Virus record (IMG/VR): IMGVR_UViG_3300033153_005136
Span: 1-32,570 of that record
Length of the DNA stretch: 32,570 bases
Direction: 5' to 3' (one strand)
DNA from: a virus
Part shown: positions 2,283-29,147 of the stretch, one piece after another
Numbering within the stretch: the stretch's first letter is position 1
Layout of the letters: every line of letters begins with the position of its first letter
Made by a program: the position numbers and the translations under genes
Notes under the pieces: generated by a model
What the model saw: only the letters and a program-made list of their open reading frames with translations
What the model was told of the DNA's origin: nothing
The model's database searches: none

Positions 2283-3486
2283 CTCTTCTCCTCAATAGTC
2301 TTGATGTGTTGTAGTTGCCACTTTCCAAAGATTCTTTTAATGTTTTTTTCGGTGTAACATTTGTAATATTTGTAACATTGTTACGGTTTGTTACAGGTGT
2401 TACACTGTTACTCTGGTTATCTTCACTTATGTTGTATGATTTATAATCATCCTCGATCATCTGTAACATTTCAGCCAAATTTTTGATTTGAGCCATGGTA
2501 ACATCTTCGGGCTCATTTCTGTTTGGTAGCGCCATATTTGCCAGCTTTGTCTCCATGTCTGACATAGACCCCTCACCAGCCACTCTTGTTAGTGCTCTAT
2601 TGGTAGACTTTAATGCACCAACGGCAACATCAAACATTCTGCCCTCTTTGGTGGGGAGCATCCCAAATCCTAGACCAAAAGCCCAAGAGTCCTTTTTAAA
2701 GGCAGATAGTACATTTGCTAACTGTTTCTTAGCTATCCTAATCTTATTTAATTTACCCTTTATGGTAGCTTTAAATTTAGGGCTAATCTGTTGTTTCTTC
2801 AACTGCCTTCTTTCGCCTTCTGCGCCTGTGGTTGTTATAGCTCTTGCTCTTGAGCTTCCAGGTGGCAATGTATAAGCTTCACCTTCTGGGCCATAAACGG
2901 TTTGACCTGCTTTTGGTGGCATATACCGTCTATGAATCACACCTTCCTTTGTTGTGATTGGAATCATAGTATTCTCACCGAAAGTCTGACTTACTTGCCA
3001 TGGTCGTCTTTCTTCATCCACAAAAACGTGTGCTTTTGGCTTTGAAACTCCAGATTTTCCGAACTTTGAATCATAGAACTTGTCCGGTTCAACCTGTTGG
3101 TGTTTGAGTAGTTCCGCCTCGATATCCTGCTTGTATGTTGGTGATTCAGGATCTAAACCTGAAACCCCTTCATAGAATCCAGACTTTCGCTCTTCAGCTT
3201 GAGTAACCTTGTCTCTCTCTTCCTGCGCTATCTCCATATCCAGCCTGTCTTTTTCGACTTTGGACTCATGAACTTCACGGGCTAACATGCGCTTTCTGAC
3301 CATCTCGTCAAGCATGGTTTGACGCTTCGTCCCCTCATCTTCACGCTGTTGATAACCTTGAGCCTCTTGCCCGATCATTCCAGCAGCTTGTCCGAGGTCT
3401 TGATAGATGTTTGACTGCGGCATTGGCTCGACTGGGCGTTGACCAGCTTCACGAATGCCCATACCTCTTGGAAATGGTACTCCCAT
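2272..3486 (-). CDS. Coiled-coil internal virion-like protein
   Basis: This 404-residue protein begins with a Gly/Pro/Gln-rich segment (MGVPFPRGMGIREAGQRP) followed by a charged coiled-coil region around residues 50-110. The middle is basic, and Asn/Thr/Val repeats (VTPVTNRNNVTNITNVTP) lie near residues 362-380. No catalytic motif is visible. AGGGGGCTAGTT precedes the ATG. It sits between two other Gln/Ala-rich proteins in the late operon, and an internal capsid or ejection role is the most likely reading. The Asn/Thr repeat is encoded by a run of GTAACA/GTTACA words, listed separately. Confidence 0.5.
   Translation of the reverse strand: MGVPFPRGMGIREAGQRPVEPMPQSNIYQDLGQAAGMIGQEAQGYQQREDEGTKRQTMLDEMVRKRMLAREVHESKVEKDRLDMEIAQEERDKVTQAEERKSGFYEGVSGLDPESPTYKQDIEAELLKHQQVEPDKFYDSKFGKSGVSKPKAHVFVDEERRPWQVSQTFGENTMIPITTKEGVIHRRYMPPKAGQTVYGPEGEAYTLPPGSSRARAITTTGAEGERRQLKKQQISPKFKATIKGKLNKIRIAKKQLANVLSAFKKDSWAFGLGFGMLPTKEGRMFDVAVGALKSTNRALTRVAGEGSMSDMETKLANMALPNRNEPEDVTMAQIKNLAEMLQMIEDDYKSYNISEDNQSNSVTPVTNRNNVTNITNVTPKKTLKESLESGNYNTSRLLRRRDGR
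2351..2413 (-). repeat. GTAACA/GTTACA microrepeat inside the coiled-coil gene
   Basis: About 60 nt contain at least six copies of the hexamer GTAACA or its near-inverse GTTACA/ATTACA, some direct and some inverted. One copy pair forms the perfect small hairpin GTAAC-ATT-GTTAC at 2372-2384. In protein the block reads as repeated VT-N/P units. It looks like slippage-driven expansion within a coding region. Hairpin potential at the RNA level is a by-product or a possible second function. Confidence 0.6.
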
Positions 3487-11114: not shown

Positions 11115-11753
11115 TTACTTTTTACTTTCAGCGAGCATTGCATCGAGAGTTTTCAATGATGCATTTTTAGGAGGCGTTACTCCAGCTTTTTTAAGTTCTT
11201 CAATCTTCTCTCTTTTAAGTTCTTCGATTGCCGCTTTTTTAGCTTCCTCGTCGTTCTTGCTTGAGTTGAGTTTCATTTCGGCAAGTTCTTTTCTAAAAGC
11301 TTCAAGCTCTTTGGATGCCTCACTCTTGATCTCATTTAACTTAATTTCAGATTCAGCTTTTTGATCTGCCAATTCTTTTTTAAGACTTTCAACTTCTTCA
11401 GACCTGTCGGGATATTCAAAAGGGTTCGGGTCGTGATGTTCAGAGTTGTCATAGCTTGCACCTTCAACGTCACCACTGAAAACTTCAGGCATACCCTTCA
11501 TGATATCAACCTTAACAATTTCGGCCTCTTCACCAGCTTTTAAAACGGTAAAATGACTATAGTGTCGTGAAATCCAACTTTGATTATGTTGATTGTTTGG
11601 AATAATCCATTCAAGCAATTTGTTTTCAACTGAAACACTTGTAGGGTCGAGCATTTCAATCGGGTTTAAATCATTTGTTTTCATCCCCGGAAGACTATAT
11701 GATAGTTGATCTTTTTTAAGCTTTTTTTCTGCTTGTAATACGAAATATTCCAT
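11115..11753 (-). CDS. Coiled-coil structural protein after the capsid genes
   Basis: This 212-residue protein has an N-terminal mixed region (residues 1-110) and a long Glu/Lys-rich coiled coil (about 116-180), then a short basic tail ending LKTLDAMLAESKK, which resembles a small helical peptide-binding or docking motif. I place the start at ATG 11753 because AAAGGAATTT is ideally spaced before it. A longer in-frame GTG start at 11774 would lie inside the terminator hairpin. It is the first gene after that hairpin. Possible roles are head completion or capsid-associated protein; the function is unknown. Confidence 0.55.
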   Translation of the reverse strand: MEYFVLQAEKKLKKDQLSYSLPGMKTNDLNPIEMLDPTSVSVENKLLEWIIPNNQHNQSWISRHYSHFTVLKAGEEAEIVKVDIMKGMPEVFSGDVEGASYDNSEHHDPNPFEYPDRSEEVESLKKELADQKAESEIKLNEIKSEASKELEAFRKELAEMKLNSSKNDEEAKKAAIEELKREKIEELKKAGVTPPKNASLKTLDAMLAESKK

Positions 11754-11760
11754 AAATTCC

Positions 11761-11794
11761 TTTAAAATAGCCACTACACCGGAATGTAGTGGCT
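11761..11794 (-). terminator. Hairpin terminator downstream of capsid and decoration genes
   Basis: A perfect 10-bp stem (AGCCACTACA with TGTAGTGGCT) encloses a 6-nt loop at 11769-11794. On the minus strand it is followed by ATTTTAAA. It lies just after the stop of the decoration-like gene and just before the next gene. The short, interrupted T-tract suggests a leaky terminator. This would let capsid genes be expressed above the downstream tail genes, a common late-operon arrangement. Confidence 0.7.
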
Positions 11795-11800
11795 AATGAT

Positions 11801-12121
11801 TTAAGCCGCTTTCTGGCCTGTGTAGGTTACTTCCACAGTGTAAGAAGCAGTTGCAACGTCAGCAGTTAAAACCTGATAAATACTTACATTCATTCCGGTT
11901 TTAGTGATTGCTGTAGCTGCATAGTTGCCTTTAATTGCGCCAAGATCCGTGCAAACAACCCCGATAATATCAGGAATATTTACAAATGATTTATCAAACA
12001 CAACTGCTACTGTAGTAGTTGTGTCATTACCAGCAGTTACCGCAACTGTAACGCTAGCTTTATTAACGGTTTCCCGTGCCCCTAATGCGGCAACGGGTAG
12101 TTTTTTCTGTGTATCAGCCAT
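11801..12121 (-). CDS. Small beta-rich protein, capsid-decoration candidate
   Basis: This 106-residue protein is rich in Thr, Val and Ala, with alternating hydrophobic/polar stretches that suggest beta strands, and it has no Cys. It follows the major capsid gene by 12 nt, has the strongest ribosome binding site seen here (AAGGGAGGTGTCAC before ATG), and is followed by a terminator. Together these features fit an abundant capsid-decoration or head-fibre-base protein. No family is recognised. Confidence 0.5.
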   Translation of the reverse strand: MADTQKKLPVAALGARETVNKASVTVAVTAGNDTTTTVAVVFDKSFVNIPDIIGVVCTDLGAIKGNYAATAITKTGMNVSIYQVLTADVATASYTVEVTYTGQKAA

Positions 12122-25103: not shown

Positions 25104-25460
25104 TTACATATCCCCCACACTATCACATAATTTTATTTTATGTTTTTTAGCGAATTTGATACATTCAACCAAGCTGTAGGTGTGGTGGTAGGTGAGACAC
25201 TCGTCTGATGGTTCTCCAAGTTTATCAAAACCCCTATTGTACAGTATATCTCTAACTGCATGAAGCAACTCATGAGAGATTGTGCCAATTGGGACTTTCA
25301 GGTTTGTATTAAAATAAACTTGTGGATTAGTACTCCCTTCATCATTAAAAGTTGTTGTATACGCAATTGAATTATCTTCGAATTTCTTTGTCCAAAATAT
25401 TTGTATTCCACATCGTAATACTGGGAATAAAATACTTTGCTCTTTATATTGTTTTTTCAT
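25104..25460 (-). CDS. HExxH metallopeptidase-like protein
   Basis: This 118-residue protein carries HELLH (His63-Glu64-x-x-His67) in the context GTISHELLHAVRDIL, followed about 20 residues later by SDECLTYHHTYSLVE, where Glu87 may be the third zinc ligand. This is the layout of small zinc-peptidase-like phage proteins. Proteolysis itself is not proven; some such families are structural or inactive. GGAGAGAGAGTT precedes the ATG. It is transcribed with the next gene and lies just beyond a strong terminator, so its expression may be low or separately promoted. Confidence 0.6.
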   Translation of the reverse strand: MKKQYKEQSILFPVLRCGIQIFWTKKFEDNSIAYTTTFNDEGSTNPQVYFNTNLKVPIGTISHELLHAVRDILYNRGFDKLGEPSDECLTYHHTYSLVECIKFAKKHKIKLCDSVGDM

Positions 25461-25480: not shown

Positions 25481-25511
25481 AAAAAACCCTAGAGGGTATT
25501 AATCTCTAGGG
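25481..25511 (-). terminator. Intrinsic terminator after the recombination operon
   Basis: A perfect 8-bp GC-rich stem (CCCTAGAG with CTCTAGGG, 9-nt loop) at 25487-25511 is followed on the minus strand by six T (25486-25481). It is the clearest Rho-independent terminator in the window. It ends the transcript that carries the coiled-coil, Cys-rich and exonuclease genes, and insulates the metallopeptidase-like gene. Confidence 0.9.
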
Positions 25512-25559
25512 CCAAATCAACCAATATGCAACAAAAGAGGAGTTAAGTGCATACTGGTT
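25481..25559 (-). ncRNA. Candidate small RNA with anti-Shine-Dalgarno loop
   Basis: Eight bases after the stop of the coiled-coil gene, minus-strand RNA forms a 12-bp stem (AACCAGTATGCA with TGCATATTGGTT; 25559-25548 and 25530-25519). The loop is 17 nt, CTTAACTCCTCTTTTGT. The terminator hairpin and six U follow. One stem pair is G-U in the minus RNA but A-C in the plus RNA, so only the minus transcript pairs fully. The loop plus one stem base (CCTCTTTTGTT) is complementary to AACAAAAGAGG, the binding site of the 28674 gene, and closely to those of 28833 and 26866. Hairpin, seed and terminator resemble a 3'-UTR-derived regulatory RNA. Function is inference. Confidence 0.45.
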
Positions 25560-25567
25560 AATATAGA

Positions 25568-26866
25568 TTATTTTTCAGCTTTCACAATGAAAACACCAGG
25601 TTTTTCCGCATCGAGGACAATTTGTTTTAGAGTGACATAAACCGCTTTACCCTCATGTTTAGCTCTCTCGATTTCTCCAGCTGTGATTTCTGTTGATCCT
25701 TCAGAGAGTTGTTTTAGTGCTTCAGCGAGTTTCTTTTCTGCTAATTCTTTCTCTTTTCTAGCTGTTTCGATTTCTTCAAGTCGCTTGGCTTCTTTTTCTT
25801 TAGCTTCACGTAAGATTCTTGCAGTTTCCAATCTAGCGTCTTCAGCCTCTTTATCGGCCTTAATTTTAGCCTTTGCAATTGCGTTAAATTCGTTTTCTTT
25901 TTTAAGCTTATCACGCGCAACCTCTCTATCTTTTTTGTCCTGAGCCTCTTTTGCGGTGCGGTCTTTTTCATCTTGATCGGCTTTTAATTTAGCTTGTCTC
26001 ACTTCCTCAATATCTCGCTCTTCTTTGAGTCTTTTGTTTTCTTCTGCAATTCTTTTTTGTTCCGCTTCGTCTTTTTCTTTCTGAATTCCAGCAAATTCAA
26101 TTATTCTATCAAATGCCTCTGGTTCAATTTCACCGAATTCAACATTATCAAAGTCAGGAATGTAATTAGATAATTTATAAGCAACATCTTTTCTAGCTCG
26201 GTGTAGTTTCTGCTTTTCAAGAGCAATTCTCTCTTCTTCAATAACCCGTTCAGCTTCTTTTTTACATTCTTCAAATTCCTCTTTTAAGCCCTTTTTGACG
26301 TGCTCAAAAATGCTAGGTGCCATTGCTGCAAAGTCGGTACTTTCATCAATTTTACAGTACTCAGAGTATTGCTTAAGTTCTTCTAAGCGTTCTTTTCCTA
26401 GAGCTTCCTTTTCTTCGCGGTCAGCTTTTTCCTGCTTAATTCTTAGTGATTCATTGTGGTTTTCAATTGCTTTAACTTCGTTTTTATCATCAGCAATCAA
26501 GTCTTTGACAAACGAAGCGAGTAAGTCATTGCCTTTTTTCGCAAGATTCAAATCAATATTACAAAGCTTTCTGGCGTTTTCTGCCGCTGTCCACATCTTC
26601 CCTATGTCAATTCTGTGACGTTTAGCTCTTGCAACTAGCTCAGGAGGTACCATTTTACCAGTATCTTTGTATTTGTCGAACTCCGACATGATGTCTATTT
26701 TATTTTCTTGATGAGTATTGAAGGATTCCAACATTGGCACAAATACTTTCTTTAACTCTCCAATTCTTCCCTTTGGTATTTGAGTTTCATCAAATCCAAC
26801 TATTTCATAATTAGCTGTTGTTAATTCGCCTTCTTTAACTTCTGTATTTTTTATTTCTTCAGACAT
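25568..26866 (-). CDS. Long coiled-coil protein of the recombination cluster
   Basis: This 432-residue protein has a folded N-terminal third (about 20-130, including PPELVARAKRHRIDIGKMWTAAENARKLCNIDLNLAKKGNDLLASF), then extended Lys/Glu/Arg coiled coil (140-225 and 270-385), and a short beta-like end (GKAVYVTLKQIVLDAEKPGVFIVKAEK). Proteins of this look often lie beside phage YqaJ-type exonucleases, where they may assist recombination. No RecT, Erf or Redbeta signature is recognisable, so calling it the annealing protein would be a guess. AAAGAGGAAATT precedes the ATG. The Cys-rich small gene overlaps its start by 16 nt. Confidence 0.55.
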   Translation of the reverse strand: MSEEIKNTEVKEGELTTANYEIVGFDETQIPKGRIGELKKVFVPMLESFNTHQENKIDIMSEFDKYKDTGKMVPPELVARAKRHRIDIGKMWTAAENARKLCNIDLNLAKKGNDLLASFVKDLIADDKNEVKAIENHNESLRIKQEKADREEKEALGKERLEELKQYSEYCKIDESTDFAAMAPSIFEHVKKGLKEEFEECKKEAERVIEEERIALEKQKLHRARKDVAYKLSNYIPDFDNVEFGEIEPEAFDRIIEFAGIQKEKDEAEQKRIAEENKRLKEERDIEEVRQAKLKADQDEKDRTAKEAQDKKDREVARDKLKKENEFNAIAKAKIKADKEAEDARLETARILREAKEKEAKRLEEIETARKEKELAEKKLAEALKQLSEGSTEITAGEIERAKHEGKAVYVTLKQIVLDAEKPGVFIVKAEK

Positions 26867-27009
26867 AATTTCCTCTTTTTTGGTTTATTTTTCTCGAACC
26901 GATTACACCAACCGGACGCATTTATTGTTTTGTGCCACTCTAGACACATAAACCCTGTACGCCTTGAGCAGGTCATACAGGAGCCTTTTACTTTTTTACG
27001 TTTCTTCAT
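26851..27009 (-). CDS. 52-residue Cys-rich, zinc-finger-like protein
   Basis: The open frame starts at ATG 27009 inside the last codons of the exonuclease gene (14-nt overlap), with AAGG just upstream. It ends at 26853-26851 inside the next gene (16-nt overlap), so it fills an otherwise empty 130-bp gap. The product is very basic (MKKRKKVKGS at the start) and has CMTC (11-14), Cys22 and Cys35: CX2C-X7-C-X12-C, a plausible four-Cys zinc site. Similar small Cys-rich genes are common in phage early operons and could bind DNA or RNA. It is short and unsupported by homology. Confidence 0.6.
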   Translation of the reverse strand: MKKRKKVKGSCMTCSRRTGFMCLEWHKTINASGWCNRFEKNKPKKRKLCLKK

Positions 27010-27667
27010 CTGCCTTGTAATCTTTGCGATGCTTTTTAATGTCTTCCATCAGCTTTTCAACTTCAATTTTTGCTAATTCAATTTCATTCTCTATTCTAGT
27101 CTGCATTTCTTCGTCCGGTTCAATTCTGACTTTCAGCAAACGATAGTTAGGGTAATATACTGCAATGTCAACCCACTCAAACCCACATACATAAATTTGA
27201 GCTTGAACTTGCTTCCAGTAGTCAGCTTTAATTAATTCGTTGTTAAAAATATAATCCAGAAACTTTTTATAGCCTACGCACTTACATTCAAGCCCGTTAT
27301 TCTTATCGCCTTCAACAATATTTCCATCAGGTGAAGCTCCCGCCCAATCGGTAAATTCATAAAACCCACCACTATCAACGGTTGAAAATGTTAGCTCTTC
27401 ATAGGCTTTAACGGCCAAAAACTCTAGCTCATGCCCCCGTTCAGTATATCCCGTTCCGAAAAACTCAGTTTCAACAGGTTCGCTAGATAGTCTTTCAACG
27501 GCACATTTTTTAATAGTATCAAGATAGCCTTTTGTCTTTTTACCCATTAGTAAATTAGATATAGAAGAGGCTGTAAATTTACCGCTTCTCAACCGTAGCC
27601 ATTCATCGGTATTCTGCTCAACAATATGGAATTTTCTTTCCTTTTTATCATGTATTGATTTATACAT
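26996..27667 (-). CDS. YqaJ-type (lambda-exonuclease-like) recombination nuclease
   Basis: The 223-residue protein matches the PD-(D/E)XK YqaJ/lambda-exo family: QNTDEWLRLRSGKFTAS (18-34), GHELEF with Glu80/Glu82 (78-83), GASPDG with Asp114, and LECKC with catalytic Glu127-x-Lys129, then YWKQVQAQIYVCG (150-162). Such enzymes chew 5' ends to give 3' single strands for phage recombination and replication. ATG 27667 is chosen over 27670 and 27697 because AGGA is best spaced and it overlaps the previous stop by only 8 nt. It is complete, with normal length and all key residues. Confidence 0.9.
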   Translation of the reverse strand: MYKSIHDKKERKFHIVEQNTDEWLRLRSGKFTASSISNLLMGKKTKGYLDTIKKCAVERLSSEPVETEFFGTGYTERGHELEFLAVKAYEELTFSTVDSGGFYEFTDWAGASPDGNIVEGDKNNGLECKCVGYKKFLDYIFNNELIKADYWKQVQAQIYVCGFEWVDIAVYYPNYRLLKVRIEPDEEMQTRIENEIELAKIEVEKLMEDIKKHRKDYKADEET

Positions 27668-28178
27668 CATTTTCCTTTTCAGCTTTTTTATCAGCATATT
27701 GTTTTAGGAGTTCAACTTTATTTTCTTCAGAAAGCCTATACATGGTCAAAACCTTCTCAATCGTTGTACCATTAACCATATGTAAAACCCCATTATTCCA
27801 AGCCTCTGTTTCCGGCAACAATTCAGGTAATTCAGTTTGCGGATGAAAATCTCTAATTCTGAGAGCATCAACCATTTCCCGAGCGACCTTTACTTTCTGT
27901 ACAAAAACTTGGATAGGCATACCACACCAATCCTCAATAAATTCTGATTTAGAAAGCTTCATGAGTACCTTTGAATTGGTTACATTCAGTATCATCGGTT
28001 TAACATTCTCTTTGAAATAAGCCACCATACAGGAGCCTTTTTTACCGTTCTGGTCTATCACCTCTACATCCTGCCTAACTGATTGTATTGTAACAATTAT
28101 ATCACGGTATTCAGGAGCTAAACTATAAGCCCCCAAGTAGTCAGGATTAAAACCTTTTCTCCAATGCGTTTTACTCAT
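27660..28178 (-). CDS. Conserved phage protein partnered with YqaJ nucleases
   Basis: This 172-residue protein reads HWRKGFNPDYLGAYSLAPEYRDIIVTIQSV near the start, then VAYFKENVKPMILNVTNSKVLMKL and IEDWCGMPIQVFVQKVKVAREMVDALRIR. These patterns occur in a common phage protein usually next to exonuclease/annealing genes. It looks beta-rich, and an OB-fold-like single-strand binding role is possible but unproven. The last about 30 residues are helical and basic (ENKVELLKQYADKKAEKEND). GAGG lies before the ATG. It overlaps the stop of the preceding gene by 4 nt and its own 3' end overlaps the nuclease start. Confidence 0.7.
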   Translation of the reverse strand: MSKTHWRKGFNPDYLGAYSLAPEYRDIIVTIQSVRQDVEVIDQNGKKGSCMVAYFKENVKPMILNVTNSKVLMKLSKSEFIEDWCGMPIQVFVQKVKVAREMVDALRIRDFHPQTELPELLPETEAWNNGVLHMVNGTTIEKVLTMYRLSEENKVELLKQYADKKAEKENDV

Positions 28179-28462
28179 ACCAAAGCCTCACATTTTGCGT
28201 TAAATTTCATTTTCTTGTCGTATTTATAGTCAGGAATTAGTCTTGCAAATTCCTCAATCACATCATCAACATTTTTAATTACCAAGCTGCCACCCTTAAA
28301 TATATACCCGTCAGTGTGGCAAACTATATCGGTATCACCCTTCAATCTAAGACAAATCATCCCTACGTATGCGCCATCAAGAGCAACACTAATATCAATA
28401 CGATACCCGTAAGGCACAATATCCATACAAAACTCTTTCAGTCTAGTTATAAATTCAATCAT
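28175..28462 (-). CDS. Small protein of unknown function (early left operon)
   Basis: This 95-residue alpha/beta protein starts with a helix (MIEFITRLKEFCMDIV), then beta-like segments (YRIDISVALDGAYVGMICLRLKGDTDIVCHTDGYIFKGGSLVI), and ends with a helix. It has three Cys in the body but no paired motif. GAGGTGAGTGG precedes the ATG, and its stop overlaps the next start by 4 nt. No family is recognised. Its place before the recombination genes suggests an early role. Confidence 0.6.
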   Translation of the reverse strand: MIEFITRLKEFCMDIVPYGYRIDISVALDGAYVGMICLRLKGDTDIVCHTDGYIFKGGSLVIKNVDDVIEEFARLIPDYKYDKKMKFNAKCEALV

Positions 28463-28674
28463 CCACTCACCTCATTGGTTGTAGTTTCTGATTCTTCTTC
28501 AGTAAATGTTAACTCAGCGGATAGTAAAAAGTTGTTTGCATCCATAAAATCAATATCCCACGAATCATGTGTATAATCATCCTTGTAATGTGTAAGTATA
28601 GCGTTTGCAATCTCAGCCCGTGTCAAAACTAGTCTAGTTGTTTTGGTTTTCTTTTCCTCGATTATTTCAGTCAT
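28459..28674 (-). CDS. First gene of the leftward early operon, small unknown protein
   Basis: This 71-residue protein has a Lys/Glu-rich start, a possible small helical DNA-binding-like segment (LTRAEIANAILTHYKDDY), and an acidic Thr/Glu-rich end. It is the first gene behind the TTGCCA-17-TATATT promoter and has the binding site AACAAAAGAGGGAAT, the best complement of the candidate small RNA loop. The role is unknown; first-gene position is typical of regulators or host-takeover proteins. Confidence 0.6.
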   Translation of the reverse strand: MTEIIEEKKTKTTRLVLTRAEIANAILTHYKDDYTHDSWDIDFMDANNFLLSAELTFTEEESETTTNEVSG

Positions 28675-28702
28675 ATTCCCTCTTTTGTTATTTGGTAGTC
28701 AA

Positions 28703-28731
28703 AATATAACAGTGTTTATCTATGTTGGCAA
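28703..28731 (-). promoter_or_regulatory. Leftward early promoter (sigma70-like)
   Basis: On the minus strand, TTGCCA (28731-28726) and TATATT (28708-28703) are separated by exactly 17 bp. Transcription would start near 28696, about 20 nt before the ATG at 28674, leaving room for the binding site AACAAAAGAGG. This is the best sigma70-type promoter in the window. Confidence 0.75.
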
Positions 28732-28832: not shown

Positions 28833-29147
28833 GTGAGCGAAATAAACATAAGTGTTAAAAGACTGGTGGAGCTTGAAGACCAAGAAAGGAAGCTTATGGC
28901 TTTAGAGGCTGGCGGTGTTGATAATTGGGATAACTATGGTGATGCTCTAGATGAGTACCATAGGGAAAAAGAGGAGAGTGAAGCTTTTTCATGTTTAGCT
29001 GAAGACATATGTGAAGAATTATCTTCTGGATCTTATGAGCCATCAGAGAGGGGAGCAGGTGTTGCATTTAAAGATGACGCTATTTTAAGAGTTCAGAATT
29101 TAATCAAAACAGTATTTAAAGACATTTTAAACGAGAGGGAAGCATAA
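28833..29147 (+). CDS. First gene of the rightward early operon, unknown
   Basis: This 104-residue protein starts at GTG 28833 with AAAGAGGTAAGT directly before it. It is acidic and largely helical: MSEINISVKRLVELEDQERKLMALEAGG, then NYGDALDEYHREKEESEAFSCLAEDICEELSS. I recognise no family or motif. The stop overlaps the next ATG (TAATG), so the operon is translationally coupled. Its binding site also resembles the target of the candidate small RNA. Confidence 0.6.
   Translation: MSEINISVKRLVELEDQERKLMALEAGGVDNWDNYGDALDEYHREKEESEAFSCLAEDICEELSSGSYEPSERGAGVAFKDDAILRVQNLIKTVFKDILNEREA

Follow-up and report, generated by a model that had tools for sequence, protein, structure and literature searches.

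The minus-strand early operon of this phage ends in a hairpin whose loop can pair with the ribosome binding site (RBS) of that operon's first gene. Is this complementarity an antisense control exerted by the 3' end of the operon on its own start, or a chance resemblance among sequences close to the Shine-Dalgarno (SD) consensus? The window, i.e., the whole stretch of DNA that was analysed, is an entire virus record of 32,570 bases, which encodes a P22-like portal and a large terminase. The early operon has its gene starts in the order 28674, 28462, 28178, 27697 and 26866. The features concerned are the following.

28833-29147, plus strand: first gene of the rightward operon, with PHROGs matches annotated as host RecBCD nuclease inhibitor; candidate secondary target.
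28703-28731, minus strand: predicted sigma-70-like promoter of the leftward operon (TTGCCA-17-TATATT, 10/12; prediction only).
28679-28689, minus strand: target AACAAAAGAGG in the first-gene leader, exact complement of CCTCTTTTGTT.
28459-28674, minus strand: first gene of the leftward operon (71 aa).
27660-28178, minus strand: P4 gene (phrog_21613), a query for finding relatives.
26996-27697, minus strand: exonuclease gene, YqaJ/RecE-like.
25568-26866, minus strand: coiled-coil gene (432 aa), immediately preceding the element; its leader, with a 9-nt match, is a possible secondary target.
25516-25562, minus strand: hairpin of 15 pairs including G-U (12-pair core at 25519-25559), with a 17-nt loop.
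25531-25547, minus strand (read 25547-25531): the 17-nt loop CUUAACUCCUCUUUUGU, from sequence and base unpaired probabilities.
25530-25540, minus strand: anti-RBS segment CCTCTTTTGTT, an 11-nt exact complement of the 28674 leader.
25481-25513, minus strand: second stem GGCCCTAGAG/CTCTAGGGTT plus U6, intrinsic-terminator-like, from sequence and fold.
25104-25460, minus strand: next downstream gene, phrog_1365; candidate cis target with a weak contiguous match only.

The hairpin starts 5 bases past the stop codon of the coiled-coil gene. On the minus strand, its 12-pair core is formed by the 5' arm AACCAGUAUGCA (25559-25548) and the 3' arm UGCAUAUUGGUU (25530-25519). It has the top minus-strand score of the whole record in an ungapped scan. 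The element folds at −29.2 kcal/mol (z −5.4), a result equalled by none of 200 shuffles, and the plus-strand fold is weaker (−23.9 kcal/mol). The second stem (25513-25485) leads into the U6 (25486-25481), and the phrog_1365 gene starts about 20 nt past this U-run, at 25460 on the same strand. This stem is missing from the terminator scan because its loop has 9 nt, the maximum of the scan being 8 nt. The hairpin described by the first-pass annotation, i.e., 12 pairs closing a 17-nt loop, with a terminator-like stem and U6 behind them, is seen in the sequence in all its parts. That annotation had also deduced the folded strand from one stem pair: G25554-U25524 is indeed a G-U pair in the minus-strand RNA and an A/C mismatch on the plus strand, but a single G-U pair is weak evidence of strand by itself. 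A promoter just upstream of the hairpin (TTGTGA-16-TATATT, 9/12) was rejected, as its score is at chance level and its start would fall inside the stem. Two other structures of the record must be noticed: a 19-pair hairpin with a 20-nt loop at 2350-2407 (plus strand), in or at the edge of coding sequence, which has the top plus-strand hairpin score in the record; and a nearly perfect inverted repeat of 11-12 bp at 11768-11795, between the genes 11115-11774 and 11801-12121.

The perfect pairing of 11 bases announced for the 28674 leader is borne out, CCTCTTTTGTT (25540-25530) facing 28689-28679; it extends to 13 nt (25529-25541) when G-U pairs are counted. The claim that the entire loop is complementary to an RBS was overstated: the pairing with the 28674 leader involves about 10 of the 17 loop bases and one base of the stem. 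Neither strand of the record has a better complement of this 25-nt leader than the loop, and 28674 ranks first among 42 leaders for the match to the loop. The observed score is reached by 2 of 2000 dinucleotide-shuffled loops. The nominal p is about 0.0003 (20-nt core) or 0.0013 (whole intergenic region), values insufficient by themselves to settle the question of chance since the site was picked by eye. Duplex energy discriminates poorly: with the 18-nt loop, leader 31595 has a lower value than 28674, and the −15.4 of the 28674 duplex is not rare among random 18-mers scored against all leaders. The argument is thus built on contiguous-run scores and on the comparison between phages, not on duplex energy. 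The near-matches formerly noted at two other leaders exist but are weaker than that of 28674, with 9 contiguous bases at 26866 and 7 at 28833. The silencing of both operons in the window would depend on these weaker matches (28833 in particular) and is a candidate role.

Searches with the P4, exonuclease and coiled-coil proteins gave six metagenomic relatives in which these three genes stand together in an operon: L002, L003, L004 and L011 (group I), and L008/L022 and L025 (group II). In each of them, the coiled-coil gene is followed by a structured RNA. The group II element reads CAACG-CCTCACA-CGTTG; the long stem that comes next has a different sequence in each of the two phages and pairs in both. 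The group I element has an 18-pair stem and an inner hairpin, with 10 pairs changed on both sides (equalled by 0 of 500 shuffles). RNAalifold recovers its main stem unprompted, and an invariant GGATCAA/TTGATCC pairing would give a pseudoknot. This conserved RNA of 160 nt (L002 10589-10752, L003 4791-4948, L004 10451-10615, L011 7243-7400) deserves mention in its own right: strong two-sided covariation, a probable H-type pseudoknot, one strong copy per genome and no matching Rfam family. A released small RNA, such as the terminated one of roughly 80 nt put forward by the first-pass annotation, is not a shared feature of the lineage, because a clear terminator at the element is lacking in all six relatives (L008 has just a weak U-rich stretch). 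The group I covariance model (four members) finds nothing in the window, group II or G3, thus sequence homology of the element across classes is not demonstrated.

As far as seen, the device belongs to this lineage only. In G3, used as negative control, the gene of a distant coiled-coil homologue abuts the one that follows, and the element is absent. Against phage records, no match was obtained by megablast with a 12.6-kb query, nor by tblastn with the coiled-coil and portal proteins; profile scans of genome contigs with two coiled-coil alignments gave no relatives. The DNA pattern GCCTCACACGTTGG has 55 matches in viral contigs; in the checked context of these matches, a downstream GTGAGGC copy occurs just in the two known group II contigs. 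Two other conserved sequences were met in group I. L003 (5376-5437) and L004 (10770-10830) share a second-hairpin-like stretch, ATCAAA..GCTAAGATGGTTTTTGGGGAG, 3' of the post-element gene. A small ORF, M.LTDFNN.PPRDQRVIASLCFGAVSRYIK, is almost unchanged near the early operon start in the four group I phages (L002 near 7308, L003 1681-1789, L004 7739-7840, L011 4488-4590).

The complementarity persists, with changed sequences, in the six relatives: each element is complementary to the leader of its own first gene over 8-13 nt. The lengths are 9 bp in L002 (10 with G-U), and, with G-U, 8 in L003, 10 in L004 and 13 in L011; in group II, they are 10 in L008 and 8 in L025 (10 with G-U). The pairs fall into three unrelated classes: CCTCTTTTGTT/AACAAAAGAGG in the window, CTCACACG/CGTGTGAG in group II and GTTGATCC/GGATCRAY in group I. 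A table of every loop against every leader is block-diagonal, with scores of 17.5-28.5 within a class and 8-15.5 between classes, it being understood that the mutual resemblance of SD-like sequences inflates match scores and that the seven phages represent only three independent, non-alignable classes. On the whole intergenic region, the best p of each group is 0.0017 (L011) and 0.0023 (L025), the others ranging from 0.008 to 0.12; L003 (0.12) is weak alone. For both groups the question was set in advance by the window finding, but the choice of core segments in the relatives was made by eye.

A change in the loop goes with a change in the leader, whereas the first and downstream genes encode different proteins in most phages. 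What is preserved is thus the leader-loop pair, tied to the promoter and to the operon end. The first-pass annotation had named a loop varying freely beside constant binding sites as the pattern contrary to its proposal; the opposite is found, loop and first-gene leader covarying in the six relatives. That the element pairs with the leftward operon's first gene is supported by these relatives as well as by the window match. The seven predicted leaders are short (about 25-30 nt; about 25 nt in the leftward operon of the window) and lie behind good sigma-70-like promoters, so that a duplex of 8-13 bp would cover the SD and much of the leader. However, the anti-RBS segment may not be free in the two groups, since it has alternative partners: the invariant upstream GGATCAA copy inside the group I element, and, by prediction, the RBS of the next gene or a nearby copy in group II.

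In group I, several early leaders besides that of the first gene, on both strands, also fit the element and share the motif AAGGATC[AG][AG][CT]. In L011, six leaders pair with the element over 11-15 nt. Most substitutions in the motif are A-to-G facing U or C-to-T facing G, which fits RNA pairing, although transitions are common anyway and their excess is modest evidence. The window has just a few loosely similar leaders, vs. a clear repeated motif in group I. Apart from any pairing, it must be noticed that the repeat in the four group I contigs (L002, L003, L004, L011) exceeds what an SD requires.

The match between loop and leader is probably a real antisense feedback switch and not chance. 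The best explanation, to which we give somewhat better than even confidence, is that the early recombination operon carries, at its 3' end, an anti-RBS element which controls the leader of the operon's first gene. That six relatives keep the match with quite different sequences argues for this feedback. The exposed loop would pair with the very short 5' leader, SD included, of the first gene, and the duplex would lower translation of the operon. As the operon is transcribed, the element would accumulate and block first-gene translation, i.e., act as a feedback brake. It could act in trans from a terminated or processed 3'-UTR fragment, and the terminator-like stem right behind the loop in the window would suit such a free RNA; alternatively, the 5' and 3' ends may pair within a single mRNA of about 3.2 kb. 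Other early leaders are possible secondary targets, most clearly in group I.

The main and serious rival, which we consider unlikely, is a cis element like c4: the loop would control the next gene via its RBS, and the first-gene match would be a by-product of shared RBS sequence. The loop does fit the RBS of the next gene in 5 of 6 relatives. In group II GCCTCACACG faces TGTGTGAGGC over 9-10 bp (core p 0.0005-0.002), and in L025 the minimum-energy fold directly pairs the loop with that RBS; in group I, p is 0.0015 for L011, 0.007 for L003 and 0.022 for L004. L002, however, is without this fit, and so is the window, where no contiguous match to the next RBS stands out (the longest has rank 1055; a bulged duplex reaches −13 kcal/mol) and the terminator-like stem stands between loop and RBS. 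Moreover, the next genes differ in most phages, yet the element stays with the coiled-coil gene. The two roles could coexist, and the fit in five relatives suggests that a cis function at the next gene may be part of the role of the element.

Rather less credible is an ordinary 3'-end hairpin plus terminator, with a complementarity due to chance aided by SD similarity. An anti-SD-like sequence would match some leader in any genome, the site was chosen by eye and the complementarity is read from sequence only. But the six relatives show the match again, and the sequences that form it are of three unrelated kinds. Moreover, the group II CGTGTGAG has little of an SD consensus, and that strand of the 38-kb L025 contig has four copies of GTGTGAG, two of which are the two leaders. 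The least probable of these readings takes the leader motif as a start-associated sequence bound by a protein, or as a DNA operator, with the inverted copy as a second site and not an antisense. The repetition of AAGGATC[AG][AG][CT] at several early starts of group I recalls the start-associated sequences of Cluster K mycobacteriophages (PMC3203893), and would agree with it. On the other hand, the motif copies are spaced from the start codons as an SD would be, pairing with the element survives most substitutions as G-U, and the element carries its copy in antisense orientation within a folded RNA.

By comparison with known systems, the proposed antisense feedback element works like c4 and like OppZ/CarZ, by analogy, and is not called a member of either. 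The c4 RNA of P1/P7 has sequences complementary to an RBS region, probably in loops (PMC12197685). Like c4 (RF01695), the element is a phage RNA with a loop complementary to an RBS of what gene order suggests to be the same transcript. Unlike c4, which belongs to an antirepressor operon, it is at the 3' end of a recombination operon, the first gene of its own operon, lying 5' of it, is its most constant target, and it is not upstream of an antirepressor (ant) gene: phrog_1365 follows in the window and various other proteins in the relatives. The Rfam model RF01695 has no match at gathering score in the window and L002-L004, and none on the window, L025 and L011 elements when E values up to 10 are allowed; more generally, Rfam gives nothing credible at gathering and permissive thresholds and no family at curated thresholds. 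OppZ and CarZ of Vibrio cholerae are operon 3'-UTR RNAs that pair with their own transcript and inhibit its translation; these host RNAs are processed by RNase E, as shown experimentally (PMC7398697). The element shares with them a 3'-UTR sequence complementary to the translation start of the same operon, and the same proposed logic, but it is in a phage, its processing and repression are putative, and a terminator-like stem, as for the 3' end of OppZ/CarZ, is found in the window only.

RNAIII and the Rsa RNAs of Staphylococcus and LhrC of Listeria are anti-SD small RNAs with C/U-rich loops, encoded by stand-alone host genes and acting on many targets. The element has in common with them an unpaired pyrimidine-rich loop able to pair with SD sequences (for LhrC, see PMC4132741); unlike them, it is in a phage operon. 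The LhrC model (RF00616) gives it 18.5 bits (gathering 110, E 1.3), far below the cut-off. Cluster K mycobacteriophages have a phage-specific SD-containing motif repeated at many starts (PMC3203893). The group I motif also contains an SD and is repeated at several starts, but its sequence differs, and the available part of that source mentions no complementary structured RNA, unlike the situation in group I.

A wider proposal is put forward tentatively, and we regard it as possible rather than likely: the lineage would keep the regulatory relation and rewrite its letters. The antisense RNA at the operon end would co-evolve with the short leader of the operon, and in group I also with the early start-associated sequences, giving each phage a private anti-RBS code. 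A few classical cases of antisense control of translation are known in phages. If true, the present one would put a feedback on the recombination functions of a phage, and could be recognised by paired changes of loop and leader. It would also point to a testable meaning of the start-associated repeats of phages, i.e., a complementary structured RNA should be sought in the same genome.
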